Assembly (NCBI RefSeq): GCF_017356035.1
Contig: NZ_JAFIQX010000003.1
Coordinates: 1-64,000, forward strand
Direction of reading: 5' to 3'
Origin: Longitalea luteola
Lineage (GTDB): Bacteria > Bacteroidota > Bacteroidia > Chitinophagales > Chitinophagaceae
DNA: 64,000 bases
Below, piece after piece: positions 11,446-63,262 of the stretch. Made by a program: the position numbers and the translations under genes. Numbering within the stretch: the stretch's first letter is position 1; every line of letters begins with the position of its first letter. The notes under the pieces were generated by a model. It was not told where the DNA came from and made no database searches. It was given only the letters and a program-made list of their open reading frames with translations.

Positions 11446-11577
11446 TTCAGTTATTTAGTTATTCAGTTAATGAGTTGTTGAGTTAGTATTTCCGATTGAC
11501 GATTGACAATGGTGGGTTGTCGACTGACGACTGACGATTGCCAATTGACGACTGACGATTGTCGACTGACGATTCCC
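11446..11577 (+). repeat. Degenerate heptamer array, GACTGAC/GATTGAC words
   Basis: Twelve consecutive 7-bp words stay in register from 11494 to 11577, mostly GATTGAC, GACTGAC and AATTGAC. The preceding 11446-11488 is a looser run of AGTTATT/AGTTAAT-like words. The array fills the gap between the convergent tamL and AsmA-like genes. The same words reappear in inverse orientation at 40896-40930. Confidence 0.85.
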
Positions 11578-11580
11578 CCC

Positions 11581-13230
11581 CTACAAAGGCAGCCCGCCGG
11601 TAATACCAAGCGTGTTCTGCACGCCCTTAAAGATCGATTTCCAGATGAGATTGAAGATAGACGCACTAACATCTCTTGGGTGAGAAATTGAAACAATGCG
11701 TTCCACGTCATTCTTTTTGCCAGGGTTGGCGTCGAGGATCGCCATATTGGCCAGTAAGGTCACCATTTTCCTGTTTTTTATTTCTTTTTCTTCCTGGTCC
11801 TTTTTCAGGATCTTGATCTTAAGATCGTTGTATAACAGCCTTACGATCCCCCTGGCGTTGTAGTCGTTGCCAATGAGATTAAAGTCGAGGCTGTTGATAT
11901 TACCAGAATTGATTTCTACCATGGCCATTGGCTTGCTTAAGCGGTTGAAGATGGTAGCATCTGTTGACTTCAAGCTACCGTTCACGGCAAACCTGCCCTT
12001 ATTATTGCCATAGTAAAGCTTCAGCGTTGCAGTAAGCGGTATACTGCTAAGTAAGCGGCTGTTAAAGTGTATGGTGAAGACATTATTTTTACGGATATCT
12101 TTGCGGCGGCTGGTAACATTGTGCAGGGTGGCATATACGTTGTCGAACACCAGCACGCCGCTGCTCCCGGTTTTTGGCACTTTTTCCTTGTACTCAATAT
12201 ATCCATCCTGTACAATCACTTTTTTGAGGGCAAGATCAATGGGTATTTTCAGAAGCTCCTGTTGTGGATAATGCCCCACTTTGCTTACTGTTCTAAGAGG
12301 ATACGACCTGTCTCTCGCTATTTTAAAGCTCGTCTTCGAAACAGACAATTCATCGGCGATGAGGTTGCCGTTCAACAGTTCCCGGACATCTATGTTTTTA
12401 AACAGCAGATTGTGCAGGTCAACGTCGAACCTGTCGGTTTGCCATTTGGCTGCGCGCAAAAAGGCCGCCTCGCCTAATAAAGGGGTAATCTGTGCCTTCT
12501 TTATTGCAAATGATCTGTCCTTCGATTGCAGGGTCAGATCGGTGAACTGATAATGATACAACTGATTGGAGCGCCGTAGCAGTAATTTATTGACATCCAG
12601 GGATGCGCTTTGGGCAAATAATATACGGGTAGAATCGGTGCTCGTACTATCACTGATATCGATATGATGCAGTTGTGCATTTATTTTCAGACCGCTGAAA
12701 ACAGTGTCGCCTTTAGGCCAGCGGCATATGTGGTAATCTGCATCAGCAAGAATGATGGTGTCTACCTTGATCTTTTGCAGTCCACGCAGCAGTACCTGGT
12801 ATATTTTATCGGTAGTGGGCGTTGTGTCGTTGTTTTTAGCGCCACGACGGTTGTTGTACATTGTTACCACCGGCCTGGTTAATTTTATCTTGGTAGCTAT
12901 TACCTCTTTGTTCAGTACAGCCGCATCAGTTTGCACGCCGGTGACGTGTAATTCAGCTACTTTAACGCGTAATAAGTTCCTGGGGAGCGTGCTGTCTGTA
13001 GGCTTTTTGTAAGTAGAGTCGGGGATCAGCTGCAGGTTCCTGATCACGATCTCGCCTTCTACTTCATCTATGTCGATGGTGTCGTAGGTGATCCGGTAAA
13101 GGCTGTCTGACTTCAGGAATACGAACTGGGGAACTTTTTCAAGCAGGAATTCCTTGCGCCATTTTTTATAGTATATAAGGCCTCCGGCAACAAGAAGGAC
13201 AAGGATGAGCAGGAAGAATAGCTTTTTCAT
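11581..13230 (-). CDS. AsmA-like membrane-anchored periplasmic protein
   Basis: This 549-residue protein has one N-terminal membrane anchor (residues 3-21, KLFFLLILVLLVAGGLIYY) and a long periplasmic part rich in beta strands. It includes repeated segments such as ITYDTIDIDEVEGEIVIRNLQLIPD and VAELHVTGVQTD that resemble AsmA/DUF748-type repeats. Such proteins are thought to handle phospholipid movement or outer-membrane homeostasis. It ends with a region (LANMAILDANPGKKNDVERI) usual for Bacteroidota members. It is convergent with tamL, and its position beside tamB/tamL suggests a linked envelope role, which is inference. No paralogue-specific name can be given. Confidence 0.75.
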   Translation of the reverse strand: MKKLFFLLILVLLVAGGLIYYKKWRKEFLLEKVPQFVFLKSDSLYRITYDTIDIDEVEGEIVIRNLQLIPDSTYKKPTDSTLPRNLLRVKVAELHVTGVQTDAAVLNKEVIATKIKLTRPVVTMYNNRRGAKNNDTTPTTDKIYQVLLRGLQKIKVDTIILADADYHICRWPKGDTVFSGLKINAQLHHIDISDSTSTDSTRILFAQSASLDVNKLLLRRSNQLYHYQFTDLTLQSKDRSFAIKKAQITPLLGEAAFLRAAKWQTDRFDVDLHNLLFKNIDVRELLNGNLIADELSVSKTSFKIARDRSYPLRTVSKVGHYPQQELLKIPIDLALKKVIVQDGYIEYKEKVPKTGSSGVLVFDNVYATLHNVTSRRKDIRKNNVFTIHFNSRLLSSIPLTATLKLYYGNNKGRFAVNGSLKSTDATIFNRLSKPMAMVEINSGNINSLDFNLIGNDYNARGIVRLLYNDLKIKILKKDQEEKEIKNRKMVTLLANMAILDANPGKKNDVERIVSISHPRDVSASIFNLIWKSIFKGVQNTLGITGGLPL

Positions 13231-13671
13231 TTGTATGTATTTAGGGGTGTTGCCAATGGTGATGATTTATGTCATATTTTTATTTCGTTTGTCAGATACC
13301 GGTATATTACAAATTATTCATAACAAATTGCTTTATCCTGCGTCCGGCGCGCGAGGTTTTGTTGAATACAAATCCTATCCACACAAGCACATGCCCCGCT
13401 CCGCACAATAAACAAACGTTTATCATGGCTACGAAAACTGCTTTTATCCAATTAAAAAACTTGTTCATATCTTTTGGTGATTAGGTTTCGTCCTATATAA
13501 AAAATTATTGTGCCTGCCTTAGGGATGGTGAAATGAACTAACCATTTTGTGGCATTCTATGAGGATATATTTCCTCAGGGAAAACGCTGAAACCCGCTGC
13601 AGTGCTGTGTTTACGGCGGGGGCATAGGAATTTTAACCAATAATTGAAAAAAGGATCGAAAAATTTTTCTT
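13231..13671. other. Divergent intergenic region between the AsmA-like and barrel genes
   Basis: These 441 bp hold upstream sequences of two divergent genes. The only candidate coding segment is a 19-codon ORF at 13424-13483 (MATKTAFIQLKNLF...), which I cannot support. No clear terminator or repeat is visible. Confidence 0.5.
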
Positions 13672-14328
13672 ATGAAAAAGATTATGTGTGCTGCCTTATT
13701 ATCGGCCGCGATTTTAACAGGAACCAGTGCCTTGGCACAAGTGCAACAGACACCAGATGAAAGTGACTTATCCCCTAAGTTCGGTATCAAGGGAGGCGTA
13801 AACCTCACCAACATGTATGTGCAGGATGTGTCGGATGAGAACATGAAAGTTGGATTCAATGCCGGCTTTTTTGCGAAACTGCCTATTACAAGAGGTTTCT
13901 CCATTCAACCAGAACTATTGTATACAAGCAAGGGAGCGAAAGAAACCTATGATAATTTCATTCAGGGAGAAGGAGAGTACAGGTTCAACCTGAACTATAT
14001 TGAATTGCCGGTACTGGCTGTAATTAACCTGGCCAAAAATTTCAATGTACATGTTGGCCCTTACATATCCTATCTCGCAGCTGCGAATATCAAAGACCTG
14101 GAAGATGACGGCACGATAGAGGATATTACTGATCTGGATGCCGAGAATTTTAACCGGTTCGATTATGGTGTTGCCGGCGGGCTTGGCATAGATATTTCTA
14201 ACTTTACCATAGGTGCCCGTTACAGTTATGGCTTAAGAGAGATTGGGAAGTCCGGTAGCCTGTCCGGAGAATTGACAAGAGATTCGAAGAACAGCGCTAT
14301 CTCTCTATATATCGGATTAGGATTTTGA
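13672..14328 (+). CDS. PorT-like outer-membrane beta-barrel protein
   Basis: This 218-residue protein has a cleavable signal peptide (MKKIMCAALLSAAILTGTSALAQ, cleavage after about residue 23). The small eight-stranded barrel is of the OMP_b-brl_2/PorT type: KFGIKGGVNLTNMY in the first strand, GFFAKLPITRGFSIQPELLY, LNYIELPVLA, and a C-terminal strand ending LYIGLGF with the terminal aromatic residue used for barrel insertion. Such barrels are abundant in Bacteroidota and mostly lack assigned substrates. The gene is monocistronic with a strong terminator 26 bp downstream shared with the convergent kinase gene. Confidence 0.9.
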   Translation: MKKIMCAALLSAAILTGTSALAQVQQTPDESDLSPKFGIKGGVNLTNMYVQDVSDENMKVGFNAGFFAKLPITRGFSIQPELLYTSKGAKETYDNFIQGEGEYRFNLNYIELPVLAVINLAKNFNVHVGPYISYLAAANIKDLEDDGTIEDITDLDAENFNRFDYGVAGGLGIDISNFTIGARYSYGLREIGKSGSLSGELTRDSKNSAISLYIGLGF

Positions 14329-14353
14329 GCGATACGGGTTTGAGGATTCAAGG

Positions 14354-14388
14354 AAAAAGCTGCTTCCCAAAGGGAGGCAGCTTTTTTT
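14354..14388. terminator. Bidirectional terminator between barrel and kinase genes
   Basis: AGCTGCTTCCC pairs with GGGAGGCAGCT (one mismatch) and is flanked by A and T runs, so it can serve both convergent genes. Confidence 0.85.
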
Positions 14389-14420
14389 CATACGCACATG
14401 TAGCTTTGAGGACCTTATTG

Positions 14421-15893
14421 TTATTGTTCGTCTCGTATATTGGCCACTTCCTGGTTCTTGGGGAACGTAATGATGAACGATGTACCCACATTCAAAGTAG
14501 ATTTTACGTCGATGGTTCCCTTGTTCGATTGTATGATGTTCAACGTGCTCGCAAGCCCCAGTCCCATCCCGTTGCGTTTGGAAGTAAAATAAGGTTCAAA
14601 CAGCCGCGAAATGTTTTCTTCACTGATGCCGCAACCATTGTCACTGATAATAATGCTTGGGTCGGGATCGTCATTGATCACTACAGATATTCTTCCCTGT
14701 TTATGGTGTATGGCTTCCGTAGCATTGATCAGGATGTTGGAAAAGGCAAGCTTTAACTTTTCCTTATCTACAGTTACTACCACCGGTACGTCGGGATATT
14801 TGATCTCGAGCTTTATTCGTTGCAGCGTCAGCCGGTCAATGGCGTCGAGTATACTTTCGTCCATGACGCTTTGCAGCACATGGCGTTCCATTTTCATTTC
14901 CGCCGGCCGCGATGAGTTCAACAGCTCCGTGATCAGCGCTCCAATGCGGTTGCTGTTGCGCTGAATGATCTCCAGGTAGGTTGAACCGTTTTCATCGCCG
15001 CCTGCCTCTTCGCGCAGGTGCTCTACCGACAGATTGATATTGTTCAAAGGATTTCGCACTTCGTGGGCCAGGGTGCGTACCAGCCGGCCGGTGGCGGCCA
15101 GTTTTTCTATTTGCAGGGTAGCTTTTTCTGCCTTTTTAAGGTTGGTGATGTCATGCACAATACCCTGCATATAATCCTGGTTGTTGTTATCGGTTTCCAG
15201 CGATGCTGAAATGATACAGATGCGGTGTTCGCCCTGTTTCGTGCGGATCTCCGCTTCCAGGTCATTCACTTCCTGGCGTTCGGTGAACAGGTACCTGAAC
15301 CGTTCTTCTTCTTTCTTTTGAATGAACAGGTCATAAATGTTTATCTGCATCAGCTCCTCGCGGGTATAGCCTACGAGGTCGGTGGTAGCGCTGTTCACAT
15401 CTTTGAACCGGCCCTCGCGGTCGGCGGTGAACACCATATCTTTCGAGCGCTCGAACATATTGCGGTACTTGCGCTCATTGGCCCTCAGGGCCTTAACAGA
15501 GGCCGATCTGTCGAGGGCATAGCGAATGGAGCGTTCTAATTTTTCCTCGTTCAATTCGCCTTTTACCAGGTAATCCATGGCGCCCACCCGCATCGCTTCC
15601 ATATCTACCGTGTGGTTGCCTTTACCGGTTAATAAGATCACCGGTTCTTCACAGCCGGCGGCGATACCTTCCTTCAACAGATCGAGCCCGGTCTTGGCGC
15701 CCAGGCGATAGTCGATGAAATAAATATCAAACGCCCGGCTTTTCATTTGTTCAAGCGCATCCTTATAGGAATAGCACCAGTTGGTTGAAAAACCCGATGA
15801 CGGAATATTGCGTATGAGATCACTGGTAATTAAAAAATCATCCTCATCATCATCTACAATGAGAATGCGGGCCTGTAAATTGGATACTATCAT
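14421..15893 (-). CDS. Receiver-PAS-histidine kinase hybrid
   Basis: This 490-residue cytosolic protein has three parts. Residues 8-128 are a receiver domain with the acidic pair DDDEDD (14-19), phospho-acceptor D61, switch threonine T89 and K111. Residues about 140-255 form a PAS domain. A classical HisKA/HATPase core follows, with LAHEVRNPLNN (H277), the N box and DNGCGIS/GMGLGLA boxes. The N-terminal receiver suggests that the kinase is modulated by phosphorylation from another kinase, possibly the one encoded just upstream. It is last in a minus-strand run rpoN - activator - PAS kinase - this gene, separated from the PAS kinase by only 9 bp, so co-transcription is likely. Confidence 0.9.
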   Translation of the reverse strand: MIVSNLQARILIVDDDEDDFLITSDLIRNIPSSGFSTNWCYSYKDALEQMKSRAFDIYFIDYRLGAKTGLDLLKEGIAAGCEEPVILLTGKGNHTVDMEAMRVGAMDYLVKGELNEEKLERSIRYALDRSASVKALRANERKYRNMFERSKDMVFTADREGRFKDVNSATTDLVGYTREELMQINIYDLFIQKKEEERFRYLFTERQEVNDLEAEIRTKQGEHRICIISASLETDNNNQDYMQGIVHDITNLKKAEKATLQIEKLAATGRLVRTLAHEVRNPLNNINLSVEHLREEAGGDENGSTYLEIIQRNSNRIGALITELLNSSRPAEMKMERHVLQSVMDESILDAIDRLTLQRIKLEIKYPDVPVVVTVDKEKLKLAFSNILINATEAIHHKQGRISVVINDDPDPSIIISDNGCGISEENISRLFEPYFTSKRNGMGLGLASTLNIIQSNKGTIDVKSTLNVGTSFIITFPKNQEVANIRDEQ

Positions 15894-15902
15894 CAGGTAA
15901 TA

Positions 15903-17897: not shown

Positions 17898-17951
17898 CAA
17901 AGCCTGGACTTATATGCGTATATTTCCTTCACAGGGTGAATGAGCCGCGTG

Positions 17952-19508: not shown

Positions 19509-19608
19509 CTTCAAATTTACTTTTTTACTGTGAGTTTATGATGGATTGTTTCAGGAATACCCGGATCGATTAAAGCGTAAAATTCAGTATTTTTTAACAA
19601 TGCCGTTG

Positions 19609-25587: not shown

Positions 25588-26568
25588 ATGATGAGAATTG
25601 CAATTAACGGTATGGGCCGTATCGGCCGGCTATTGTTCAGAAGGTTGATAGATAACAAAGAGGTTGAACTGGTTGCGGTGAATGATATTATGGATACAGA
25701 TAACCTGGCTTACCTGTTAAAATATGACTCGGTATACGGAACTTTTACCGGGACGCTCGTGCAGCAGCCGGGAGCTATTGTAGCCGACAACAAGATAGTA
25801 AAAACGTTTCAGCAGGAAAATCCCGCCCGCCTGCCCTGGAAAGACCTGCAGGTAGATGTGGTGCTGGAATGTTCGGGCAGGTTCTCGAACCGCGCTGCCG
25901 CTGAACAGCATATTAAAGCCGGCGCCCGGAAAGTGCTATTATCTACCACCGGTTCAGCCGATATTCCGCTGCTGGTATATGGGTTTAACCAGCATGCGCT
26001 TAAAAAGGATGACACCATCGTTTCCCCAGGCGGCTGTATGACCAACTGCTCCACTCATATATTGTATATTTTGAATGCAATTGGCATTCAATCGGTTCAA
26101 TGTAACATTTTACATTCCTACACCTCCCGGCAGGAGCTGGTGGATGCGCCCAATAAGCAATTCAGGCGGGGCAGGGCAGCGGCTGAAGCTATTATTCCGG
26201 TAGAAATCGATCTGCAGCAATCGCTTGAACGGTTACTGCCGGCCCTGGCAGGCAGGATCGCATCGGTTTCTACCCGGGTGCCGGTAGCCAATGGGGCCAT
26301 GGCCGATTTTACGATTCAATTGAAGCAGGAAACTTCCCGGCAGGAGATCAACCGGCTTTTTTCAACAGCCGCTCAAAACGATTATAAGGGCATTCTGGAA
26401 TATACCGAAGACCCGTTGGTGTCGCTCGATATTAAAGGAAATACGCATAGCTGCGTTATTGACGGTACCCTAACCTCTGTCGTAGGCAATCATGTGAAGC
26501 TGATAGCCTGGTTTGATAATGAATATGGTTTCACTACAAGGATGATCGACTGGTTAGGGAAGTTATAA
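25588..26568 (+). CDS. Divergent type I glyceraldehyde-3-phosphate dehydrogenase paralogue
   Basis: This 326-residue protein keeps the GAPDH fold: NAD-binding INGMGRIGRLLFRR, VNDIMD, and the C-terminal WFDNEYGFTTRM. The catalytic Cys150 and His176 are present, but their surroundings are unusual. The active-site motif reads GGCMTNCSTH instead of SCTTNCLAP, and the histidine loop reads HSYTSRQ instead of HSYTNDQ. FRRGRAAAEAIIPV replaces the usual RRARAAA-NIIPT. It probably still oxidises a phosphorylated aldehyde with NAD, but it may be a paralogue with altered substrate or a moonlighting form rather than the main glycolytic enzyme. No pgk is nearby. An alternative ATG is the second codon. Confidence 0.85.
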   Translation: MMRIAINGMGRIGRLLFRRLIDNKEVELVAVNDIMDTDNLAYLLKYDSVYGTFTGTLVQQPGAIVADNKIVKTFQQENPARLPWKDLQVDVVLECSGRFSNRAAAEQHIKAGARKVLLSTTGSADIPLLVYGFNQHALKKDDTIVSPGGCMTNCSTHILYILNAIGIQSVQCNILHSYTSRQELVDAPNKQFRRGRAAAEAIIPVEIDLQQSLERLLPALAGRIASVSTRVPVANGAMADFTIQLKQETSRQEINRLFSTAAQNDYKGILEYTEDPLVSLDIKGNTHSCVIDGTLTSVVGNHVKLIAWFDNEYGFTTRMIDWLGKL

Positions 26569-26594: not shown

Positions 26595-26722
26595 AATGGA
26601 ATTTCTGATTTCGGGATTGCGAGATTTCCTGATTTCTTCAAACTCCAAACCTTTGATAAATCTCAAAATCTCAAAATCCCAAAATCTCAAAATCCCGAAA
26701 TCTCGAAATCAGAAATCAGAAA
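26595..26722. repeat. Inverted octamer array, AAATCTCA words
   Basis: Seven or more 8-bp words stay in register from 26658 (AAATCTCA, AAATCCCA, AAATCTCG, AAATCAGA). The left arm (26595-26638) holds the complementary words (GATTTC, GGGATT, GAGATTT). The two arms can fold into a long imperfect hairpin between the gap-like gene and the OmpR-type regulator. Confidence 0.8.
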
Positions 26723-33829: not shown

Positions 33830-33848
33830 AACTTAACTTTTTATACGC

Positions 33849-33986
33849 AAAACGCTTAACGCTGAACGCAAAACGCTGAACGCTTAACGCAAAAGGCAAA
33901 ACGCAAAAGGCAAACCTGCCTGCCGGCAGGCAGGTGCTTAACGCTTAACCCAATACGCAAAACGCAAAAGGCGAAACGCAAAACGC
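33849..33986. repeat. Heptamer array with central 20-bp palindrome
   Basis: Nine in-register heptamers (AAAACGC, TTAACGC, TGAACGC, AAAAGGC) run from 33849 to 33911. A 20-bp perfect palindrome, CCTGCCTGCCGGCAGGCAGG, follows at 33915-33934, and then seven more heptamers run to 33986. It lies just upstream of the decarboxylase start. The palindrome is a known dispersed motif in Bacteroidota that, when translated, gives PAGRQ peptides. Confidence 0.9.
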
Positions 33987-37168: not shown

Positions 37169-37193
37169 GTTAAAATCGGGGGTAAAGTTGGCC

Positions 37194-37320
37194 GGAAGTC
37201 GGAGGTCAGAGGCCTGAAGTCGGAGGCCGGAAGGCGGAGTTCGGAGTTCTGAGGTCAGAGGCCGGAAGTCGGAGGTTTGAGCTGTAAATTTCAACCTCCG
37301 GCTTCTGACTTCCGACTTCA
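37194..37320. repeat. Inverted heptamer array, GGAAGTC/GGAGGTC words
   Basis: Twelve consecutive in-register heptamers run from 37194 to 37277 (GGAAGTC, GGAGGTC, AGAGGCC, TGAAGTC). After a 15-bp spacer, four heptamers in the opposite orientation occupy 37293-37320. The right arm is complementary to the last words of the left arm, so a stem of about 28 bp can form. It fills the space between the DUF1015 stop and the TPR promoter. Confidence 0.9.
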
Positions 37321-40832: not shown

Positions 40833-40895
40833 AACGGAATGAAGGTACCGAGATTATCGTTTTGCTGTGACCCTGGCTGTTAGTTATTGATTATG

Positions 40896-40930
40896 GTCAA
40901 TGGACAATCGACAATCGTCAGTCGTCAATC
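40896..40930 (-). repeat. Heptamer array, same words as 11494 in inverse orientation
   Basis: Five in-register heptamers; on the minus strand they read GATTGAC, GACTGAC, GATTGTC, GATTGTC and CATTGAC, the vocabulary of the array after tamL. It sits between the phospholipase start and the DUF502 stop. Confidence 0.8.
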
Positions 40931-48681: not shown

Positions 48682-48685
48682 AATT

Positions 48686-48802
48686 AATGTGATAATTAGC
48701 TAATGTGATAATTTGATAATGAAAATCCCTGGCATTGCCAGGGATTTTTTTGTTGTATTTCAATTATCACATTATCGAATTATCCAATTATCACATTGAT
48801 CA
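48686..48802. repeat. Inverted octamer array flanking a terminator
   Basis: The left arm (48686-48725) holds four in-register octamers (AATGTGAT, AATTAGCT, AATGTGAT, AATTTGAT). The right arm (48763-48802) holds five octamers in the opposite orientation (ATTATCAC, ATTATCGA, ATTATCCA). Between them sits a strong terminator hairpin. The arms can pair to enclose the terminator in a stem of about 40 bp. Confidence 0.85.
48722..48749. terminator. Bidirectional terminator between RND and M16 genes
   Basis: AATCCCTGGC pairs with GCCAGGGATT around ATT, followed by seven T; a shorter A run precedes it. Confidence 0.85.
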
Positions 48803-51813: not shown

Positions 51814-51996
51814 TTAAGGCGGAAGGCTGAAGGCGGAAGGCTGAAGGCGGAAGGCTGAAGGCTTAAGGCAGAAGGCGAAAGGCTGAAGGCGGAAGGCTTA
51901 AGGCGCAAGGCAATGAGTTTCGGGTGGCGTAAGTTCGGTTATTAATTTCAAGATGCGCGAACCATTCACCATTCACCATTGACCATTGACCATTCA
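51814..51996. repeat. Composite repeat: AAGGC heptamers, ~50-bp core, CCATTCA heptamers
   Basis: Fourteen in-register heptamers (GGAAGGC, TGAAGGC, TTAAGGC) run from 51814 to 51911. A core at 51912-51961 (ATGAGTTTCGGGTGGCGTAA and on) follows, and then five heptamers (CCATTCA, CCATTGA) from 51962 to 51996. The same three-part order with about 80% core identity recurs at 59682-59787. It lies between the divergent M16 and AIM24 genes. Confidence 0.9.
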
Positions 51997-52044
51997 CCAT
52001 GTAACAACTAAAAACTCATTAATAAAACTTTTAAACAGATTTAC

Positions 52045-52901: not shown

Positions 52902-52943
52902 GTAAAGTATATTATCTCGTGCCCCACAGGAGGGGCGGGGGCT

Positions 52944-53702: not shown

Positions 53703-53869
53703 AGTTATAAGGGTTTTAAATTTAATTATGCTATGTTCTAAGATCTTTGTTTTATTTCTGGTCAGGCTTCCAGAGTCACCGGTTACCAGTTACCGGTGGC
53801 CTGCAACCTGAATAAAGTTCCGCTTATTTGTTTTAATCAACACAACTTGTCCCGACTTTAGTCGGGATT

Positions 53870-53924
53870 AGCAAATCAGCACATCAGTACATTGATTCAT
53901 TGTGATTACATTATCACATTATTC
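53870..53924. repeat. Octamer array, AGCACATC/ATTATCAC words
   Basis: Six in-register octamers (AGCAAATC, AGCACATC, AGTACATT, GATTCATT, GTGATTAC, ATTATCAC) run up to the ricT stop. Just to the left, CCCGAC/GTCGGG forms a small hairpin (53851-53866), and 53775-53810 holds a few heptamers (GGTTACC, AGTTACC). Confidence 0.7.
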
Positions 53925-55253
53925 TTTTTTCCCCCGGTCTTCCCGGTTGTCCCGGCTCTCCCGGTTTTCGCGGTTCTGCTGCTGATTCCTTTGCGGATTA
54001 TGCTTCCGCTCGTTGCCTCCGCCTCCTTTTTTATCGTGTTGCCGGTTGTCGCGGCGGTGTTGCTGTTGTTGCTGATGAGGACGGTGTTGCTCCTTTTGTT
54101 GCTGCTGCTGACGGGGCTGTTGCTCCTTCTGCTGTTGGTGGTGGTGCCGCTTTTTCTTTTCGGCCCTTTCCAGGCTGCGTAAGCTGATCTGTCCAACCAC
54201 ATCAACAAATTCAGGTTCCACCTCTTTGGGCTTCTGGGTGGTTACATCAACTGCTTCCAGTTCATCGGCCACTTTGCCCTGCTCATTCAACTGTTTTATT
54301 TTCCGTACCCGTTCAATGGTCAGCGGGTACTGCTTGGTGCTGTCGGGCAGGGTATACCACATGAGATTTTTGAAAATATCTTTCTTGATCAGGATGGCAG
54401 TGCCCTTTTGTACCTGCAGCGTATCGGCATTGTCTGGAAAATGCTGTAATGCATCGAGGTAAATATCCAGTTCGTAGTTGAGGCAACATTTTAACCGGCC
54501 GCACTGTCCGCTCAACTTGCTTTGGTTGATCGACAGGTTCTGATAACGGGCAGCAGTGGTATTTACCGATTTAAAATCGGTTAACCAGGTGCTGCAGCAA
54601 AGTTCGCGACCGCAACTGCCGATTCCGCCCACTTTGGCGGCCTCCTGGCGGGCGCCTATCTGGCGCATTTCAACCTTTACCCTGAATTCTTTAGCGTAAA
54701 CTTTGATCAATTCACGAAAGTCGACCCGGTCATCGGCGATATAAAAGAAGGTGGCTTTGCGGCCGTCCGCCTGGATCTCTACTTCCGTGAGCTTCATTTC
54801 CAGGTTCAGCTGGCGGGCAATGGCCCGCGCCCTGATGAGGGCGTCTTTTTCGCGTTCTTTATTTTGTTGCCAGATCTCTATGTCTTTATCTGTGGCGCGG
54901 CGTAACACTTTTTTAATATCGGGGTCGGTTTCGTCGGCATTTCTTTTCTTCATTTGCAGGCGAACAATTTCTCCTGTAAGGTTTACAGTGCCAACATCGA
55001 AACCGCTTACGCCTTCTACGGCAACGAGGTCCCCTTTTTCGAATAAATGAACAGTGGTATTCCGGAAAAAGTCTTTGCGACTTCCGTTATTGAAAGTTAT
55101 CTCTACGATCTTGCAGCTGCCTGAAGGATCGCTGAATGGCAGGTTACTCAGCCAATCGTGCACATTCATCCTGTTACAACTGCCCGTGCTGCATCCGCCA
55201 TTGCTTTTACAACCGGCAACTTTACCGCCTGTTCCGCATGAACTACATCCCAT
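53919..55253 (-). CDS. ricT: RicT, PSP1-domain iron-sulfur complex subunit
   Basis: This 444-residue protein begins with a Cys-rich stretch (MGCSSCGTGGKVAGCKSNGGCS). The PSP1 domain spans residues about 95-260, with the conserved IGSCGRELCCSTWLTDFKSV and KLSGQCGRLKCCLNYEL blocks whose cysteines bind Fe-S in the RicA-RicF-RicT complex of Bacillus. In that system it promotes RNA maturation with RNase Y. The last 80 residues are a low-complexity Gln/His/Arg/Asn tail (QQQ, HHH, RRD runs), probably disordered and RNA-binding. Neighbouring holB is the usual partner in Bacteroidota; gldH, which often follows ricT in the phylum, is not present. Confidence 0.93.
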   Translation of the reverse strand: MGCSSCGTGGKVAGCKSNGGCSTGSCNRMNVHDWLSNLPFSDPSGSCKIVEITFNNGSRKDFFRNTTVHLFEKGDLVAVEGVSGFDVGTVNLTGEIVRLQMKKRNADETDPDIKKVLRRATDKDIEIWQQNKEREKDALIRARAIARQLNLEMKLTEVEIQADGRKATFFYIADDRVDFRELIKVYAKEFRVKVEMRQIGARQEAAKVGGIGSCGRELCCSTWLTDFKSVNTTAARYQNLSINQSKLSGQCGRLKCCLNYELDIYLDALQHFPDNADTLQVQKGTAILIKKDIFKNLMWYTLPDSTKQYPLTIERVRKIKQLNEQGKVADELEAVDVTTQKPKEVEPEFVDVVGQISLRSLERAEKKKRHHHQQQKEQQPRQQQQQKEQHRPHQQQQQHRRDNRQHDKKGGGGNERKHNPQRNQQQNRENRESRDNREDRGKKE

Positions 55254-55622: not shown

Positions 55623-56858
55623 CTAAATAATATTAGCTACCTGCTTGGCGGCAATGATGTGGTATAATTTAATGGTGAGGGCATGGAACAGCATTTTGGC
55701 ATTGGCGTTCCGTTCTATATAATAAGAGGCTTTGTCGAGCTCTTCAATAATGGCCTGCTGCTGATGAAAGGCGGCGATCTTGTTCAGGCGGCCGGCAAAG
55801 TCTTTTTCCTTGTCGGGCAGGTGCAGGTTCTCGGGTCCCATGGCGTGCAGCCGGATGGCCTGCTCCAGCAGATGGGTGAAATAACGGAGGAATTGTTTTT
55901 GTTTTTCGCGGCCCAGCTTGCTCACTTCCTCGATCCATTTTACCTGGGAAATAGGGCCGTTCTTTAAAATGGCATTAAGCCATTCGCGCAGCAGCGATTG
56001 CCAGTCTTCGTCGGCATGCTGTATTAACTGTAATGCCTCCCGGTAATTGCCTTCTGCGATAAGAGCGATCTGGCTGGCAGGTTCTTCGGCCATTTTTGCT
56101 CTGGTTACCAGGGCGCCCGTTATTTCCTGGTGGCTAAGGGCCGGAATTTTAACCAGCTGGGTTCTCGACAAGATGGTCTGCAGAATGAGCGATTCATTTT
56201 CGGCGACCAAAATAAATAGAGTATTTGGTGGTGGCTCTTCGATGAGTTTCAACAGCTTATTTCCTTCATTGCCCAGGTATTCGGGCATCCACATGACCAG
56301 TATTTTAAATCCGCTTTCGAAGCTTTTTAGCGACAGCTTGCGGATGATGTCGTTACACTCATAGGCGGTAATATTACCCTGCTTGTTCTCGGCGCCAATA
56401 AATTGTAACCAGTCGTAGGCGTTACCGTATGGGTATTTGCTGATGAACTCCCGCCATTCACTGATGTAATCCGAGCTTAGGGGCTTATCGCCCGATTTGC
56501 GAGGGATCACCGGATAAGAAAAATGGATATCCGGATGCATGAGCTGCAGCATCTTCTGACAGGATGGGCATTCACCGCAGGAATCTTGTAAGTGGTTTGT
56601 GGTGAGTGGTGAGTGGGTGGCTCCCGAAGGGATCGGCTCCTCGCCAAATAGCGAAGGTCCGGCGGCTGCTGCAGGAACAACGCCTTTCTGGTTCACTTTT
56701 TCACAAACGATGTATTGGGCAAATGCAATGGCGAGGGGCAGGGCGCCGCTACCTTCTTTCCCTAAGAACAAAAGGGCATGGCTGATGCGGTCGTGCTGCA
56801 CCATATTGGCGAGATGCAGTTTTACATCTGCCTGGCCTATAACATCTTTAAATAACAT
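55623..56858 (-). CDS. holB: DNA polymerase III delta-prime subunit
   Basis: From ATG 56858 this is a 411-residue clamp-loader subunit: MLFKDVIGQADVKLHLANMV, the HALLFLGKEGSGAL P-loop-like segment (degenerate, as normal in delta-prime), the zinc-binding CGECPSC (residues 94-100) with C52, DIRKL/FKILVMWMPEYLGNEGNKLLKLIEEPPPNTLFILV (sensor and box VI), and a C-terminal collar domain. Residues about 57-91 (between VCEKV and DSCGEC) are an insertion; its last part, THSPLTTNHLQ, is a translated heptamer array. The 69-residue upstream frame extension is array-derived and is rejected; ATG 56858 matches the family start. Confidence 0.93.
   Translation of the reverse strand: MLFKDVIGQADVKLHLANMVQHDRISHALLFLGKEGSGALPLAIAFAQYIVCEKVNQKGVVPAAAAGPSLFGEEPIPSGATHSPLTTNHLQDSCGECPSCQKMLQLMHPDIHFSYPVIPRKSGDKPLSSDYISEWREFISKYPYGNAYDWLQFIGAENKQGNITAYECNDIIRKLSLKSFESGFKILVMWMPEYLGNEGNKLLKLIEEPPPNTLFILVAENESLILQTILSRTQLVKIPALSHQEITGALVTRAKMAEEPASQIALIAEGNYREALQLIQHADEDWQSLLREWLNAILKNGPISQVKWIEEVSKLGREKQKQFLRYFTHLLEQAIRLHAMGPENLHLPDKEKDFAGRLNKIAAFHQQQAIIEELDKASYYIERNANAKMLFHALTIKLYHIIAAKQVANII
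56589..56616. repeat. Heptamer array inside the holB coding sequence
   Basis: Four in-register heptamers; on the coding strand they read CCACTCA, CCACTCA, CCACAAA and CCACTTA. The words are the same as in the right parts of the composite repeats at 51962-51996 and 59760-59787. They encode part of a peptide not seen in typical delta-prime proteins. Confidence 0.8.
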
Positions 56859-56877
56859 GCGGGGCGAAGTTAAGCGG

Positions 56878-57010
56878 AAAACGCCAAACGCGGAACGCGG
56901 AACGCAAAACGCAAAACGCTGAACGCGAAACGCAAAACGCGGAACGCAAAACGCGGAACGCAAAACGCAAAATACAAAACACAAAACGCGGAATGCCGAA
57001 CGCAAAAAGC
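56878..57010. repeat. Longest heptamer array, AAAACGC/GGAACGC words
   Basis: Nineteen consecutive in-register heptamers (AAAACGC, GGAACGC, TGAACGC, GAAACGC) lie directly upstream of holB. Read from the minus strand they have no stop for 60 codons and encode a seven-residue repeat (such as RSAFCVP). A partial copy of the GCAGGCAGG palindrome follows at 57026-57041. Confidence 0.93.
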
Positions 57011-57048
57011 TCATCGATTGGAAGCTGCCGGCAGGCAGGCACAACCCG

Positions 57049-57078
57049 CAAAAAAGCCCCGGCACAATCGCCGGGGCC
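57049..57078 (-). terminator. Terminator with no obvious gene before it
   Basis: GCCCCGGC pairs with GCCGGGGC; on the minus strand seven T follow. Upstream on that strand the nearest gene end is 57632, and another terminator already lies at 57530-57597. Confidence 0.75.
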
Positions 57079-57529: not shown

Positions 57530-57597
57530 AAAAAGCGTGGCGAGCTCCTCATTGCCTGCCCGTTAAAGCAGTGGTTGAAAGGAACCCGCCACGCCAT
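57530..57597 (-). terminator. Terminator of the glutathione peroxidase gene
   Basis: On the minus strand GCGTGGCG pairs with CGCCACGC over a 44-base loop, followed by TTTTTTA. It starts 35 bp past the stop. Confidence 0.6.
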
Positions 57598-57631
57598 ATT
57601 ATTTTATTGTGTACGCTGTTTAACCTGCTTC

Positions 57632-58147
57632 TTAGTTAAGATATTTGGTCACTTCTTCGCTGGTAACCTTGGTTTTGTTATGGATCACCGTGATCAGGTT
57701 GCCCTTTTCATCTAACAGGAACTTCGTGAAATTCCATTTAATGGGATCCTTGATGCCTTTCTTGTCGGCCTGGGCCACGAGGTATTTGAACAGCGGGTGA
57801 ATATCATCGCCTTTAACAGAGACCTTTTCAGCCATTGGGAAGGTTACACCATAATTCTTTTTACAGAACTCCTGGATCTCTTCACGCGAGCCGGGTTCCT
57901 GTCCGCCAAAATTATTGGCCGGGAAACCCACGATCACCAGTTTGTCTTTATACTGCTTGTACAGCTGTTCCAGGTCGGCATACTGAGGAGTATTGCCGCA
58001 TTTGGAGGCTGTGTTAACGATCATGATCTTTTTTCCTTTGAATTTCTTGAAGTCGATTGTGCCGGCGCCATCGAGTGCAGGAACCTTGAAGTCATAGATG
58101 GAAGGCGCTGCAATGAATAACAGCGAAGCGAGCAATAGGCGTATCAT
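57632..58147 (-). CDS. Glutathione peroxidase family protein, exported
   Basis: This 171-residue thioredoxin-fold peroxidase has an N-terminal signal (MIRLLLASLLFIAAPS) and the GPx motifs: VNTASKCGNTPQY with peroxidatic Cys50, GFPANNFGGQEPG with catalytic Gln, and WNFTKFLLD with catalytic Trp and Asn. Cys replaces selenocysteine, and a second Cys (FCKKNYGV) may resolve it, so it probably uses thioredoxin-like reductant rather than glutathione to remove hydroperoxides. The signal points to the periplasm. It has its own terminator, and a possible -7 box (CATCTTTG) lies about 40 bp upstream. Confidence 0.93.
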   Translation of the reverse strand: MIRLLLASLLFIAAPSIYDFKVPALDGAGTIDFKKFKGKKIMIVNTASKCGNTPQYADLEQLYKQYKDKLVIVGFPANNFGGQEPGSREEIQEFCKKNYGVTFPMAEKVSVKGDDIHPLFKYLVAQADKKGIKDPIKWNFTKFLLDEKGNLITVIHNKTKVTSEEVTKYLN

Positions 58148-58249
58148 ATTGAATTAATTTTAAGTAGTGTTCACCGCTAATTGTACTATACAAAGATGAT
58201 ACTAAATTGGTTGCTTTGATGCAAAATAATGGTTAACGGTCCGGGCGGG

Positions 58250-59647: not shown

Positions 59648-59654
59648 GTTCCTG

Positions 59655-59684
59655 TAAAAATACACGTTTTCGGATATACACAAA
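59655..59684 (-). promoter_or_regulatory. Candidate promoter of the beta-helix lipoprotein
   Basis: On the minus strand TTTG, 18 bases and TATTTTTA match the Bacteroidota form with one mismatch in the -7 box. The ATG follows 7 bp later. The TTTG box is the edge of the heptamer array. Confidence 0.5.
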
Positions 59685-59787
59685 AGGCGGAAGGCGAAAG
59701 GCTGAAGGCGATGAATTTCGGGCGGCGCAAGTTCGGAGATTAATCCCGAATGTCGCGAGCCATTCACCACTCACCATTCACCACTGT
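59682..59787. repeat. Composite repeat, second copy
   Basis: Four AAGGC-type heptamers (59682-59709) are followed by a core (59710-59759, ATGAATTTCGGGCGGCGCAA and on) and four CCATTCA/CCACTCA heptamers (59760-59787). Order and orientation are as at 51814-51996. It ends three bases before the comF stop codon. Confidence 0.9.
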
Positions 59788-59789
59788 GT

Positions 59790-60485
59790 TTACTTTACCG
59801 TATACGCCATGGTCATGATGCTGATGCGTGTACCAGGTGCTGTTAACAGTTCCTGTCCGCAGGCTTCCAGGGTGGCGCCAGTGGTTATTACATCATCAAC
59901 CAATAGAATATGTTTACCGGTTATAAGATCCGGTTGCTTGAGCTCGAATTTTCCCTGCATGTTCAGCCATCGGTCGATGCGGTTCTTGTTGGTTTGTGTT
60001 GCACTGGAAGTCTGGCGTTGTATTACCTGTTTAAAAATGGGAAGTGTAAGTACTTCGGCCATACCCTCGCATAAAACGGTTGCCTGGTTGTAGCCCCGTT
60101 TGCGTTCCCTGGCTGCAAACAAGGGCAATGGCACCAGGACTTCAACATCGCTAAACCGATGCGTATGTAATAACAGCTCGCCCATTTTGCGGCCAATGAA
60201 AAGTCCCAGTTCTTTATTACCCTTATATTTCAACGCATGTACGATGTGTTGCAATAAAGAATCTTTCGAAAAATAAAGGTAACTGGCGGCGGCGGTGACC
60301 GCCATGCGGCCCCAGAAGATCTTTTCGACGGGGTTGTTCGCATGCATGTGGAAACCAGTTACCGGCAACCGGTTGATGCAATGCATGCATAAGACCTGTT
60401 GCCGGCTCATGATATCACTGCCGCAACCTACGCAATGATGTGGTAAGAAAAGATGTAGTAATGGATGTAATGCATTTTTAAGCAT
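59790..60485 (-). CDS. comF: ComF family phosphoribosyltransferase-like protein
   Basis: This 231-residue protein has an N-terminal zinc finger (HHCVGCGSDI... LCMHCINRLP) and a C-terminal PRTase fold with the PRPP motif LLVDDVITTGATLEACGQEL. ComF proteins act in the cytosol in natural transformation, helping single-stranded DNA uptake; in non-competent bacteria their role is less clear. The YKGNKELGLFIGRKMGELL helix is typical. Right before the ATG lies AGCAGTT/AACTGCT, a hairpin that could occlude the start. radA ends 47 bp upstream on the same strand, so the two DNA-processing genes may form an operon. Confidence 0.93.
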   Translation of the reverse strand: MLKNALHPLLHLFLPHHCVGCGSDIMSRQQVLCMHCINRLPVTGFHMHANNPVEKIFWGRMAVTAAASYLYFSKDSLLQHIVHALKYKGNKELGLFIGRKMGELLLHTHRFSDVEVLVPLPLFAARERKRGYNQATVLCEGMAEVLTLPIFKQVIQRQTSSATQTNKNRIDRWLNMQGKFELKQPDLITGKHILLVDDVITTGATLEACGQELLTAPGTRISIMTMAYTVK

Positions 60486-60532
60486 AGCAGTTGTTTTAAC
60501 TGCTACTGCCCAGAGCGCTTAAGACATTCAAT

Positions 60533-61906
60533 TTAAAAAAGATACTGATAAACTTCTTCTACCCGGCCCATCGGTACCACTTCAATATTGGCTGCTGATT
60601 TGCTAATTGATCTTTGTCCATACCGGGAAACAATGATCTTTTCAAAGCCCAGCTTTTCGGCTTCTGCTATCCGTTGTTCAACCCGGTGAACGGCCCTTAC
60701 TTCGCCGCTTAACCCTACTTCGCCGGCAAAACAAACATGAGGTGGCAGGGGAACATCTTCATAGGAGCTCAGGAGAGCGCATAAAACGGCCAGATCGATC
60801 GAAGGGTCTTCTACCTTCAGTCCGCCCGCAATGTTCAAAAAAACATCTTTTACGCCGAAATGAAAGCCTCCTTTCTTTTCCAGTACGGCCAATAGTAACT
60901 GTAAACGCCGCAGATCAAAGCCTGAAACGGTTCGTTGCGGGGTGCCATAGACTGATTGCGTGACCAGCGCCTGCACTTCAATGAGCAACGGACGCATACC
61001 TTCGATAGTGGCGGCAATGGCTATGCCGCTTAAGCGGTCTTCTTTTTGCGTCATCAGGATTTCGCTGGGGTTATTAACGCCGCGCATGCCGGCTCCTGTC
61101 ATTTCATAAATGCCCAGTTCCGAAGTGCTGCCGAACCGGTTCTTGATGGTTCGCAGTATGCGATAGGCATAATGGCGGTCACCCTCGAACTGTAACACAG
61201 TATCGACCATATGCTCCAGTATCTTGGGACCGGCAATGCTGCCGTCCTTTGTAATATGACCTATCAGGAACACGGGTGTATTCGTTTCTTTTGCAAAGCG
61301 CTGGAACTCTGCTGCTGATTCCCTGATCTGGGATATGCTTCCCGGTGACGAATCGATGTAGGGTGATTGAATGGTCTGAATAGAGTCCACTATGACGAGG
61401 TGTGGTTTTAATTTTTTGATCTCCTGGAAAATAGTCTGCGTTAACGTTTCTGTAAGAAGGTAAAAATTATCATTGCGGATGTTCAGGCGATCGGCGCGCA
61501 TCTTTATCTGCTGTTCGCTTTCTTCTCCGCTGATATATAATACAGTTTTATCCTGTAGTTGTAATCCGTTTTGTAAAAACAGGGTCGATTTGCCAATGCC
61601 AGGCTCACCTGCGATCAATACAATGCTGCCAGGCACAATACCGCCGCCCAATACTCTGTTCAGTTCTGCGTCTGATGTAGTGATACGTACCTGCTCGCTG
61701 CTGGTGATGGTATGTAATGCAATGGTGCGGATAGATTTTGATTCTTCGTGATAATCATCCCAGCCATTTTCTTTCTTCAGGGAAGGTTTTGAAATTACTT
61801 CTTCAACAAATGTATTCCAGGTATTACATGAAGGACATTTTCCAAGCCATTTCGCGCTTTCATATCCACAATTCGAACAAAAGAATGCTGTTTTAACTTT
61901 AGCCAT
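60533..61906 (-). CDS. radA: DNA repair protein RadA (Sms)
   Basis: This 457-residue protein has the full RadA layout: N-terminal zinc finger (FFCSNCGYESAKWLGKCPSCNTW), RecA-like ATPase with Walker A GEPGIGKST (residues 100-108) and Walker B LVIVDSIQT, the RadA-specific KNRFG motif near residue 257, and a Lon-protease-like C-terminal domain without a catalytic Ser. It drives branch migration at recombination intermediates and helps natural transformation. comF follows on the same strand, which fits joint action in DNA uptake and recombination. Confidence 0.96.
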   Translation of the reverse strand: MAKVKTAFFCSNCGYESAKWLGKCPSCNTWNTFVEEVISKPSLKKENGWDDYHEESKSIRTIALHTITSSEQVRITTSDAELNRVLGGGIVPGSIVLIAGEPGIGKSTLFLQNGLQLQDKTVLYISGEESEQQIKMRADRLNIRNDNFYLLTETLTQTIFQEIKKLKPHLVIVDSIQTIQSPYIDSSPGSISQIRESAAEFQRFAKETNTPVFLIGHITKDGSIAGPKILEHMVDTVLQFEGDRHYAYRILRTIKNRFGSTSELGIYEMTGAGMRGVNNPSEILMTQKEDRLSGIAIAATIEGMRPLLIEVQALVTQSVYGTPQRTVSGFDLRRLQLLLAVLEKKGGFHFGVKDVFLNIAGGLKVEDPSIDLAVLCALLSSYEDVPLPPHVCFAGEVGLSGEVRAVHRVEQRIAEAEKLGFEKIIVSRYGQRSISKSAANIEVVPMGRVEEVYQYLF

Positions 61907-62523
61907 GCGATAAAGTTAATAAAAAGTGCAGCGGTTATTAAAACAGTGCACTCAAAACAGTTGTTGTTAATAATGGAGTAGTTGGGATGATCACGTTTTT
62001 TGAGCTTTTATTGATGATGGTGAAAAGAAGGGCTTTTAAAAACTGCGCTTACAGTGACTGATAGTTGATGACCGGTTAAGTGAACCTCTGCTATTTAAGT
62101 TGTTAAAATTTGCGGAAAAAGTGGTAGAAAAGCGGTTCGAACCAGGTACTTTTTTATAAAAGTAAAAAGGCCAACATTGCTGTTGACCCTTTACTTACTA
62201 ACCCATTAAATTCTTGCACTAAATTACAAATAAGCGCCACATAACAAAATTATTTTTTGGGGTTGTGAATAAATTTCAACCCGTATTAAGGGATTAGCGG
62301 GTTTAGCTATTTAACGTTATAATGCCTTGATAATCAAATTTTAATATAATTTTAAGAGAATTGAGAAAGTCTCTGTGATAAAATGTCAGCCCACTGCGAT
62401 TAAACGTAATTTGGGTGACAAAACGGCCCCTGATTTCTGCCGAAAAATGGCGTAAAAACTACTCAAATTATTTGGTAACTGATTTGATAGATTATTGTTA
62501 TTAATAAAAAAAGAGTACGAAAA
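61907..62523. other. Long intergenic region between radA and the YugP-type gene
   Basis: These 617 bp lie between divergent genes. A hairpin terminator for the minus strand sits at 62155-62200, although no gene precedes it on that strand. No ORF is supported. A GGTTCGAACC motif at 62131-62140 resembles a tRNA T-loop, but no acceptor or anticodon stem can be found. Confidence 0.45.
62155..62200 (-). terminator. Isolated hairpin terminator, minus strand
   Basis: AGTAAAAAGGCCAACA pairs imperfectly with TGTTGACCCTTTACTT around TTGC. On the minus strand the arm ends in CTTTTTACTTTTATA. Confidence 0.5.
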
Positions 62524-63213
62524 ATGACACCATCTATTTTAATTATTTCGATCCTGTTTTTAGTGATCAGTTTGCTGGTGTCCGGTGTGCTTAAAGGCAA
62601 ATTTGCAAAGTACAGCCGGGTGCCCTTGTCAGCCGGTTTAACAGGTAGAGAAGTAGCCATGAAGATGTTACAGGAGAATGGTATATATGACGTTAAGGTT
62701 GTATCAACCAATGGCTTCCTGAGCGACCACTATGACCCGGTTTCCAGAACGGTTAATTTAAGTGAGGACGTATATAATGGTATATCAGTGGCTTCTGCGG
62801 CCGTGGCGGCCCATGAATGCGGTCACGCCGTGCAACACGCCACTGCTTATCAATGGTTAACCCTGCGCAGCAAGCTGGTGCCGGTAGTTATGTTCAGCTC
62901 TGGCATTGTGCAGTGGATCCTGCTGTTCGGGGTAATTATGGTGAACGCCTTCCCGGCATTACTGTTGATAGGTATCGTTCTTTTTGGTCTAACTACCTTA
63001 TTTTCAGTAATTACGCTGCCGGTTGAGCTGGATGCCAGCAGAAGGGCATTAGCCTGGTTAAATCGCACGAATATTACCAATAGCAGGGAATACCCGCAGG
63101 CAAAAGACGCGCTTAAATGGGCTGCTTTAACGTATGTAGTAGCTGCCCTGGCTTCTATCGCCACTTTGGTACAATATATATTTATATTCCTGGGTGGAAG
63201 GAACAGGGAGTAA
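62524..63213 (+). CDS. YugP-type neutral zinc metallopeptidase
   Basis: This 229-residue inner-membrane protein has TM1 at residues 3-22, the zinc motif HECGH at 97-101 (in AHECGHAVQHA), two central helices (residues 120-165) and a C-terminal helix (AALTYVVAALASIATLVQYIFIFL). It matches the YugP family (PF04298): KFAKYSRVPLSAGLTGREVAMKML, and LPVELDASRRALAWL after TM3. The family is predicted to cleave membrane or exported proteins; no substrate is known. A heptamer array begins at its stop codon and a terminator lies about 160 bp further on. Confidence 0.95.
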   Translation: MTPSILIISILFLVISLLVSGVLKGKFAKYSRVPLSAGLTGREVAMKMLQENGIYDVKVVSTNGFLSDHYDPVSRTVNLSEDVYNGISVASAAVAAHECGHAVQHATAYQWLTLRSKLVPVVMFSSGIVQWILLFGVIMVNAFPALLLIGIVLFGLTTLFSVITLPVELDASRRALAWLNRTNITNSREYPQAKDALKWAALTYVVAALASIATLVQYIFIFLGGRNRE

Positions 63214-63262
63214 GGCGCAACGCTGAAGGCTGAAGGCTGAATTCGAGCGGCGCAAGGTACTT
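63210..63262. repeat. Short heptamer array and partial core, third composite copy
   Basis: Four heptamers (GTAAGGC, GCAACGC, TGAAGGC, TGAAGGC) begin at the YugP stop codon. TGAATTCGAGCGGCGCAAGG follows, a shortened version of the core at 59710. The CCATTCA part is missing. Confidence 0.7.

Follow-up and report, generated by a model that had tools for sequence, protein, structure and literature searches.

Arrays of 7- and 8-bp words in the window

The DNA analysed here, called the window throughout, is a stretch of 64,000 nucleotides from Longitalea luteola (contig NZ_JAFIQX010000003.1, positions 1 to 64,000), in which tandem arrays of short words repeat every 7 or 8 bp, mostly between genes. 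An original prediction, made from the letters of the window, had placed such arrays in at least twelve gaps. The named sites were checked with Tandem Repeats Finder (TRF) and by direct reading of the letters, and 7- or 8-bp words were found at every one of them. The features are listed below with the means of detection; a strand applies only to the array inside holB.

11446-11484: 8-bp array, AGTTATTC type (TRF, reading, array scan)
11488-11574: 7-bp array, ATTGACG/ACTGACG type (TRF, reading, array scan)
26598-26635: 8-bp array of GATTTCGGGATT type, left arm of an inverted pair (pair detector, score 20)
26658-26710: right arm, 8-bp array, AAATCTCA/AAATCCCA (TRF, array scan, pair detector)
33845-33914: 7-bp array AACGCNN/AAGGCNN (TRF, reading)
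33947-33986: second AACGCNN array, oriented as the one at 33845-33914 (TRF, reading)
37190-37276: 7-bp array CGGAAGT/CAGAGGT, with a 35-bp block repeat (TRF, reading)
37297-37319: inverted partner (TCCGACT) of 37190-37276 (by eye)
40884-40930: 7-bp array GTCAATC (TRF, array scan)
48686-48720: 8-bp array of TAATGTGA type that makes up the left arm, 4 bp past the stop codon of an RND permease gene (pair detector, score 25)
48722-48751: intrinsic-terminator-like hairpin in the spacer (by eye)
48763-48797: 8-bp array of ATTATCAC type that makes up the right arm, at 2 bp from the stop codon of an M16 peptidase gene (pair detector)
51816-51911: 7-bp array AAGGCGG/AAGGCTG (TRF, array scan; absent in congener G007)
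51961-52000: 7-bp array ACCATTC/ACCATTG (TRF, array scan; absent in G007)
53867-53902: weak 8-bp array, ATTAGCAC/ATCAGCAC type (array scan, score 13)
56591-56616, minus strand: 7-bp array within holB, where it falls in a linker whose length varies (TRF, cross-species comparison)
56878-57007: 7-bp array ACGCNNA with 18.6 units, located upstream of where holB likely starts (TRF, reading)
59683-59711: 7-bp array AAGGCGG (TRF, reading)
59760-59785: 7-bp array CCACTCA/CCATTCA (TRF, reading)
63212-63241: short 7-bp array AAGGCTG (TRF, array scan)

TRF gives the main 7-bp arrays a match of 70% to 93%, and many arrays are degenerate. Register is not everywhere as exact as had been claimed, TRF finding 2-3% indels at 26601 and 48762; two others in the predicted set, at 53870 and 63210, are weak (TRF scores of 32 and 39-40). 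An array does lie inside holB, at 56591; the one at 56878 is upstream of the likely start of this gene, in an over-long open reading frame (ORF). Rfam had no match within the window at gathering score. What the prediction overlooked is the main feature: the arrays often come in inverted pairs around a spacer. In the window, such pairs were recognised by the pair detector at 26598/26658 and 48686/48763 and by eye at 37190/37297.

Periods of 7 and 8 bp stand far above chance

The L. luteola genome (G000) was compared with its congeners (genus g1) and with three species of a second genus, g10 (G018, G059 and G060), one genome per species being used throughout. Arrays were detected by a lag scan, in which matches are scored at each lag in noncoding DNA and no word is assumed, with five shuffles as control. 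The G000 sample amounted to 464 kb (the window together with 400 kb from contigs C1 and C2), of which 59.4 kb are noncoding. In this noncoding DNA, 50 arrays were found at lag 7 and 23 at lag 8, against shuffle means of 0.2 and 0.4. Lags 5, 6, 9 and 12 yielded none, and lags 4, 10, 11 and 13 yielded 2, 1, 2 and 1 respectively, while multiples of the unit gave 35, 16 and 22 arrays (lags 14, 16 and 21). Within the called ORFs of the 464 kb, 19 arrays were counted for lag 7 and 3 for lag 8. Extrapolating from 72 arrays in the 464 kb, the 7.3-Mb genome would hold some 1100.

The same two periods dominated larger samples, whose counts include orthologous arrays of related species that are not independent of each other: 88 arrays at lag 7 and 37 at lag 8 in G000 plus part of G007 (844 kb, at most 6 at each of the other lags from 4 to 13), and 197 and 72 in g10 (858 kb, where lag 9 had 8 and none of the remaining lags more than 3). 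When a word was imposed, four units of AASGCNN matched 819 times in the whole 7.3-Mb genome, and the reversed pattern 5 times. We conclude that the arrays did not arise by chance, as had been proposed, array density in shuffled noncoding DNA being far below that of real DNA. Recurrence of words between distant arrays was borne out as well: among 49 period-7 arrays, 116 of the 1176 pairs had units at most one mismatch apart, compared with a mean of 27.1 after letter shuffling. Each genome has several clusters of words rather than one vocabulary.

Arrays are often paired in inverted orientation

An inverted partner was defined as the reverse complement of the array, found with a score of at least 14 in the 250 bp on each side. 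Of the 49 arrays in G018, 80% had such a partner; the share was 38% among the 72 arrays of G000 and 23% among the 73 of eight congeners. These figures fell to 3%, 5% and 5% when words were swapped between arrays. A reversed-only control gave 8%, 4% and 7%. The arms in G018 consist of about four units. Five g10 stretches (458 kb) contained 84 pairs, with arms of 15-38 bp and loops of 14-230 bp, from which about 1200 pairs per 6.5-Mb g10 genome are extrapolated.

Gene context, composition, arm mismatches and distance to stop codons were counted in gaps of 60 to 800 bp. Pairs occupied 27/56 convergent, 44/139 tandem and 13/58 divergent gaps in g10, and 8/37, 10/142 and 2/48, respectively, in G000. 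Genes were simple ORF calls, so that distances on the start side are rough. On the stop side, 54 of the 98 distances between arm and stop codon in g10 fell in the range from -8 to +5 bp, where random placement in the gap gives 35.8; in G000, arms were no nearer to stop codons than random placement (7/26, 6.5 expected). Nearness to stop codons is modest in g10 and nil in G000.

Read inward, arms tend to be rich in purines. Purine content exceeded one half in 22 of 26 cases in G018 (3 were below), and 32 of 44 entries of the g1 pair list were above and 11 below; one of these 44 is an artefact, its arms being separated by 52 kb, and neighbouring pairs in the list sometimes have an arm in common. 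Inward arms are also poor in C (4.1% C and 20.3% G in g10, 10.2% C and 27.6% G in G000). The idea that arrays serve as series of stop codons was dropped: inward TAA, TAG and TGA numbered 616 in g10, against 624.9 (sd 26.5) when the columns of the units were permuted, and 104 against 98.4 (sd 10.5) in G000. Since permuted units give about the same number, the inward richness in stop codons follows from base composition.

Place and architecture are kept where words and period can change

Orthologous gaps were compared between species. Between G000 and G007, 178 such gaps contained arrays in both species in 22 cases, in G000 only in 24, in G007 only in 10 and in neither in 122; for inverted pairs, 10 were common to both, 9 were found in G000 only and 3 in G007 only. 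At 4 of the 10 loci with a shared pair, both arms carried new words (similarity between species below 0.55), and at G000b_190095 the period changed from 8 to 7. A second label of period change, at 26568, is a detector effect, because G007 also has an 8-bp array there; at the matching place of the array at 26658-26710, its array is of the same type. G007 lacks several elements of about 85 to 250 bp that G000 has, whether through gain in the one or loss in the other, and block 11442-11580 of the window is missing or replaced in G007.

In g10, G018 and G059 had 84 orthologous gaps, a pair being present in both species in 23, in one only in 5 and 6, and in neither in 50; adding 140 kb each of contigs C1 of G018 and C19 of G059 left the number of orthologous regions at 84. 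The corresponding figures were 18, 12 and 7, and 51 for G018 and G060, and 15, 6 and 2, and 32 for G059 and G060. New words in both arms, by the same threshold, were found at 6/23, 1/18 and 1/15 of the shared loci. At one locus, G018a_67897, an 8-bp pair in one species faces a 7-bp pair in the other. For G018 and G059, arms resembled each other more within a species than between species (0.82 compared with 0.70, p=0.04). One-sided growth was seen in G059, where one arm consists of long GAGTTGA-type runs and the other is short, at the orthologues of G018a_74469 and G018b_75587 (L131-L133, L121-L125).

The junction between the RND permease and M16 peptidase genes (window 48682-48799; the peptidase was identified by NCBIfam) could be read in 9 of 10 species. 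The count leaves out G008, in which the site was not reached. A hairpin resembling an intrinsic terminator was recognised by eye in all 9. The detector found inverted array arms around it in seven (G000, G007, G002, G006, G003, G004 and G005), with low scores in G003 and G004 (12 and 13), and arms were seen by eye in G009. The words are of the 8-bp TAATGTGA type in five species and of a 7-bp AGCTGTA/AAAGC type in three. In G001, whose sample holds almost no arrays, the terminator stands alone. As DNA, the segment 48675-48810 folds with a z-score of -8.07. At this junction, place and architecture are conserved, and words and period are replaced.

Spacers are inverted between species at some loci

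Wherever both species had a pair, spacers were compared in direct and in reverse-complement orientation, the middle of gaps devoid of a pair serving as control. Inverted spacers were found in 2 of 13 resolvable comparisons between G018 and G059, 4 of 14 between G018 and G060 and 1 of 9 between G059 and G060, that is, in 7 of 36 at 6 distinct loci; 15 further comparisons were unresolved and 5 had a spacer shorter than 16 bp. In control regions all 82 resolvable comparisons were direct and none inverted (13 unresolved, 38 too short). The difference is significant if comparisons are treated as independent (Fisher p=1.6e-4). Spacers at the inverted loci measure 26-86 bp. An example is G018b_24060, where the 29-bp spacer is the reverse complement of that of G060 at 28 of 29 bases. 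Among 85 spacers of at least 25 bp, no similarity was detected between different loci of a genome, from which it seems that whole elements do not transpose together with their spacers.

Origin of the paired arrays

The arms of a pair can differ by mismatches that an RNA stem would tolerate (G-U) or not (A-C). In tandem gene contexts these were nearly equal, 38 G-U and 37 A-C in g10, 20 and 15 in G000. Together with the flipped spacers and the joint word changes, these near-equal numbers point to copying at the level of DNA. Given reports that template switching between inverted repeats creates and maintains hairpins (PMC8794818, in the part that bears on hairpins) and that it homogenises arms and inverts spacers (PMC8604942, likewise), we prefer template switching combined with slippage. 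Our reading, which we hold to be somewhat better than an even bet, is that the elements are quasi-palindromes of 7- or 8-bp words whose arms copy each other as DNA. In a single-stranded region at the replication fork, the arms would fold onto each other, and the polymerase would switch template between them, within one strand or between sister strands. Such a switch would keep the arms complementary, carry a new variant to both, and at times invert the spacer. Slippage by one or more units would alter the length of an array and spread variants inside an arm, and pieces of arms are probably copied between loci, which would yield the small shared vocabulary. Gaps probably tolerate the elements and do not depend on them, although they may have a secondary role in forming a 3'-end barrier or in surrounding a bidirectional terminator. 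Both processes had been put forward for the window. Slippage agrees with the multiples of 7 and 8 and with the long GAGTTGA-type arm of G059, but taken by itself it would not lead one to expect inverted pairs, flipped spacers or the near-absence of other periods. Templated spread fits what is seen between two arms at some sites (joint word change, spacer inversion), and between loci it is implied by the shared vocabulary.

Several observations weigh against this reading. Direct partners were found for 12% of arrays in G018, 12% in G000 and 21% in the congeners, the last being about equal to the 23% of inverted partners at score 14. A complement-only control was high in G018 (39%, compared with 80% inverted, at score 14; 22% compared with 76% at score 18), perhaps because many words there read similarly backwards; it was 11% in G000 and 0% in the eight congeners. 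Arms were not closer within species for G018/G060 (p=0.82) or G059/G060 (p=0.68). Flips were confined to g10, the 10 pairs shared by G000 and G007 giving none (2 direct, 7 unresolved, 1 too short); of the 6 flips, that at 137814 is weak (16 against 10.5), and two comparisons share a locus. Recombination between arms would likewise invert spacers. If arm copying is frequent, mismatches would be young, and weak selection on RNA would escape the G-U count. Finally, the mechanism predicts neither the restriction to 7 and 8 bp nor words common to distant loci.

Other explanations were weighed against template switching with slippage; their probabilities overlap, and several can hold together. Selection for a long bidirectional RNA stem past stop codons, acting as a terminator or as a block to 3' exonucleases with words drifting under pairing, would account for the arms at stop codons and the pairs in nearly half of the convergent gaps in g10 (27/56), and for the terminator-like hairpin between the arms at 48722-48751 and in its orthologues, with the strong fold noted above. 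Yet G-U mismatches are in no clear excess over A-C, arms in G000 show no closeness to stop codons beyond chance, some pairs lie between divergent genes, the terminator of G001 lacks arms altogether, and flipped spacers are events at the DNA level, so that we regard this explanation as rather unlikely. An origin as mobile elements akin to REPINs (hairpin-forming doublets of repetitive extragenic palindromic, or REP, sequences), in which a transposase copies inverted arms of about 30 bp with a variable spacer, is a little less probable still. It would suit two inverted intergenic arms of patchy occurrence, hundreds per genome by scaling, the elements of about 85-250 bp found in G000 but not in G007 and a word common to two genera. 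It does not suit the several unrelated vocabularies per genome, the dissimilar spacers, or the replacement of both vocabulary and period at one site, and the Y1 transposase (PF01797) occurs in 21 of 24 genomes, array-poor G001 included.

Flipping by a site-specific recombinase that switches genes, as in invertons, appears improbable. Inverted repeats do flank the spacers, both orientations are seen between species at 6 loci, and invertible promoters are reported for Bacteroidales (PMC8748976); but one recombinase would find no common arm sequence, words and period varying by locus and species, and a promoter flip makes little sense between convergent genes, where many pairs lie. Plain replication slippage, giving neutral satellites with no copying between arms, seems more doubtful again: unit multiples (lags 14, 16 and 21), 35-bp block repeats and one-sided growth are what it would produce, and an earlier survey, as far as PMC4679880 relates it, found heptamers to outnumber other long repeats in most genomes, but inverted partners, spacer inversion, joint word change and the near-absence of other periods are all unpredicted. 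Least credible, and very improbable, are binding arrays for a sequence-specific protein at a spacing of 7 or 8 bp. Many units fit AASGC with variable NN (the search pattern itself left NN free), and three 7-bp units make 21 bp, by reasoning about two helical turns; against this, each genome has many vocabularies, and they are replaced at conserved sites.

Candidate marks and drivers were examined in addition. Complement flips (C-G, A-T) were considered as a possible sign of strand switching. Among changes from C or G, the fraction C to G was 0.34 in period-7 arrays of G000 and 0.23-0.25 in the background, with no rise in period-8 arrays, and the idea was dropped. Of the candidate drivers, none tracked the arrays in 24 genomes: the Y1 transposase did not, and reverse transcriptase was found in 14 and was absent from array-rich G059 and G060. 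SbcD passed the cut-off in 2 of 24 (G024 and G027, array-poor by a 20-kb sample), in none of the 12 g1 and g10 genomes, and 10 of the 12 others also fell below it. SbcD below the cut-off would help palindromes persist, and is not specific to genomes with arrays.

Relation to known systems

Heptanucleotide short tandemly repeated repetitive (STRR) sequences of cyanobacteria had been named as the nearest analogue. They are a fair one, being tandem intergenic heptamers as here (as summarised in PMC4692102), but the closest known system is the inverted pairs of GGGAATC heptamers in Xanthomonas, going by the portion of PMC4692102 that deals with them: intergenic 7-bp arrays, two close arrays being inverted, with 70 (Xcc) and 75 (Xac) close inverted pairs and gene context mostly kept. 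That account has one word and one period, whereas a genome here combines several words with two periods; at the same junction, words and period are exchanged and spacers are inverted between species, spacer orientation going unmentioned in that portion of the Xanthomonas account. The Xanthomonas word is G-rich, unlike inward arms here (20% G in g10, 28% in G000), although there is a GGGATTTC array. For the GGGGA(C/T)T repeats of Nostoc, few pairs able to form inverted repeats are mentioned in the same portion. In the range of units (5-11 bp, mostly 7) and in exceeding chance in noncoding DNA, our 50 and 23 arrays (0.2 and 0.4 in shuffles) resemble the STRRs and long simple sequence repeats (LSSRs) in general.

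TAACTGA, a heptamer found here, is also the word of direct repeats in Beggiatoaceae, cyanobacteria and five Bacteroidetes, according to the passages of PMC4679880 on these repeats; here the period is 8 rather than 7, the arrays form inverted pairs, and many further words occur. From earlier work, the same source relays a 2007 survey in which heptamers outnumbered the other classes of long repeats in most genomes, and an idea of polymerase contact for the 7 bp. With REP sequences and REPINs the elements share two inverted short repeats around a spacer, extragenic position, hairpin formation and many copies (PMC3116915, in its description of REPINs); they differ in that their arms are tandem 7- or 8-mers of several vocabularies with no link to the Y1 transposase in 24 genomes, and in that REPINs are copies of one unit including the spacer, whereas the 85 spacers here are dissimilar. 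Quasi-palindromic sites of template switching are known for homogenised arms and inverted spacers (PMC8604942, PMC8794818, PMC7202029, for the cases they present); the likeness here lies in the inverted spacers and, for G018/G059 but not for the other two species pairs, in the arms. In the yeast cases presented in PMC8604942, inverted spacers differ by substitutions of 2-5 bp; here the arms are tandem arrays, the inverted spacers measure 26-86 bp, and candidate sites number in the hundreds per genome by scaling.

The combination of two periods, many words, word exchange at fixed junctions and spacer inversion was not found in the literature searched, which reached few subscription journals. 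Tentatively, and with more doubt than for the copying of arms itself, one may picture some Bacteroidota genomes in which as many as one in three intergenic gaps hold a palindrome that templates and inverts itself, by scaling roughly a thousand in all. They would have no defining sequence; their architecture (inverted arms, poor in C when read inward, made of 7- or 8-bp words and placed at fixed junctions) would be inherited while words and period are replaced: a sequence-independent element that maintains and inverts itself through replication. Many loci offer natural evidence consistent with arm-to-arm copying during replication. Genomes with many arrays of periods 7 and 8 make the preference of many bacteria for 7-bp repeats testable. 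An inverted repeat at a gene end, we caution, need not be a selected RNA structure.

Distribution across genomes and additional observations

The AASGCNN pattern was present in 13 of 59 genomes, that of L. luteola included: in 8 of 9 congeners, in G018 of the other genus (64 matches) and in three others with one or two matches each. By lag scan of 67-80 kb each, all 8 congeners examined had period-7 or period-8 arrays, G001 only one. Samples of 4-20 kb from 19 other genomes of the family or order gave 7 matches at lags 7 and 8, in six genomes (at a lowered threshold of 11), no commoner than at some other lags; a further sample, L107 of G016, consisted of N throughout and was left out. Three units of TAACTGA-A, with at most 2 mismatches, matched 775 times in G018, 854 in G059 and 332 in G060 (controls 0), 108 times in L. 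luteola and 7 times in one other genome; the remaining genomes of the 296 drawn from the phylum (L. luteola included) had no match. Arrays are patchy in distribution, yet one word is common to two genera. Among relatives of the M16 protein (named records, at most 71% identity), the best 80 loci included 4 arrays of period 7 or 8.

In the AASGCNN search, G006 had 71 matches to the reversed control pattern, and no other genome had more than 15; G006 seems to have arrays of the reversed word. Degenerate phrases with a period of about 8-11 bp (aatccgtgaaaatccgtctaatccgtgt) recur in g10 intergenic DNA, for example at G018a 41697 and 64855 (L093-L097), and are possibly a third, looser kind of repeat. 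Gaps in G018 (L093-L100) contain recurring palindromes that resemble REP sequences, with gcttcgacaa(g/a)ctcagc... and gagacgcgtt... hairpins, for example at G018a 39213 and 67897; at least one of them lies inside an array spacer.

In the window, the array inside holB (56591-56616, ACTCACC-type words) encodes part of a linker whose length differs between species: an HSPLTT stretch is common to L. luteola and G002, and the linkers of G009, G004 and G005 are about eight residues shorter. The reading frame of RicT contains a 33-bp direct repeat (54064-54128, TRF score 88).

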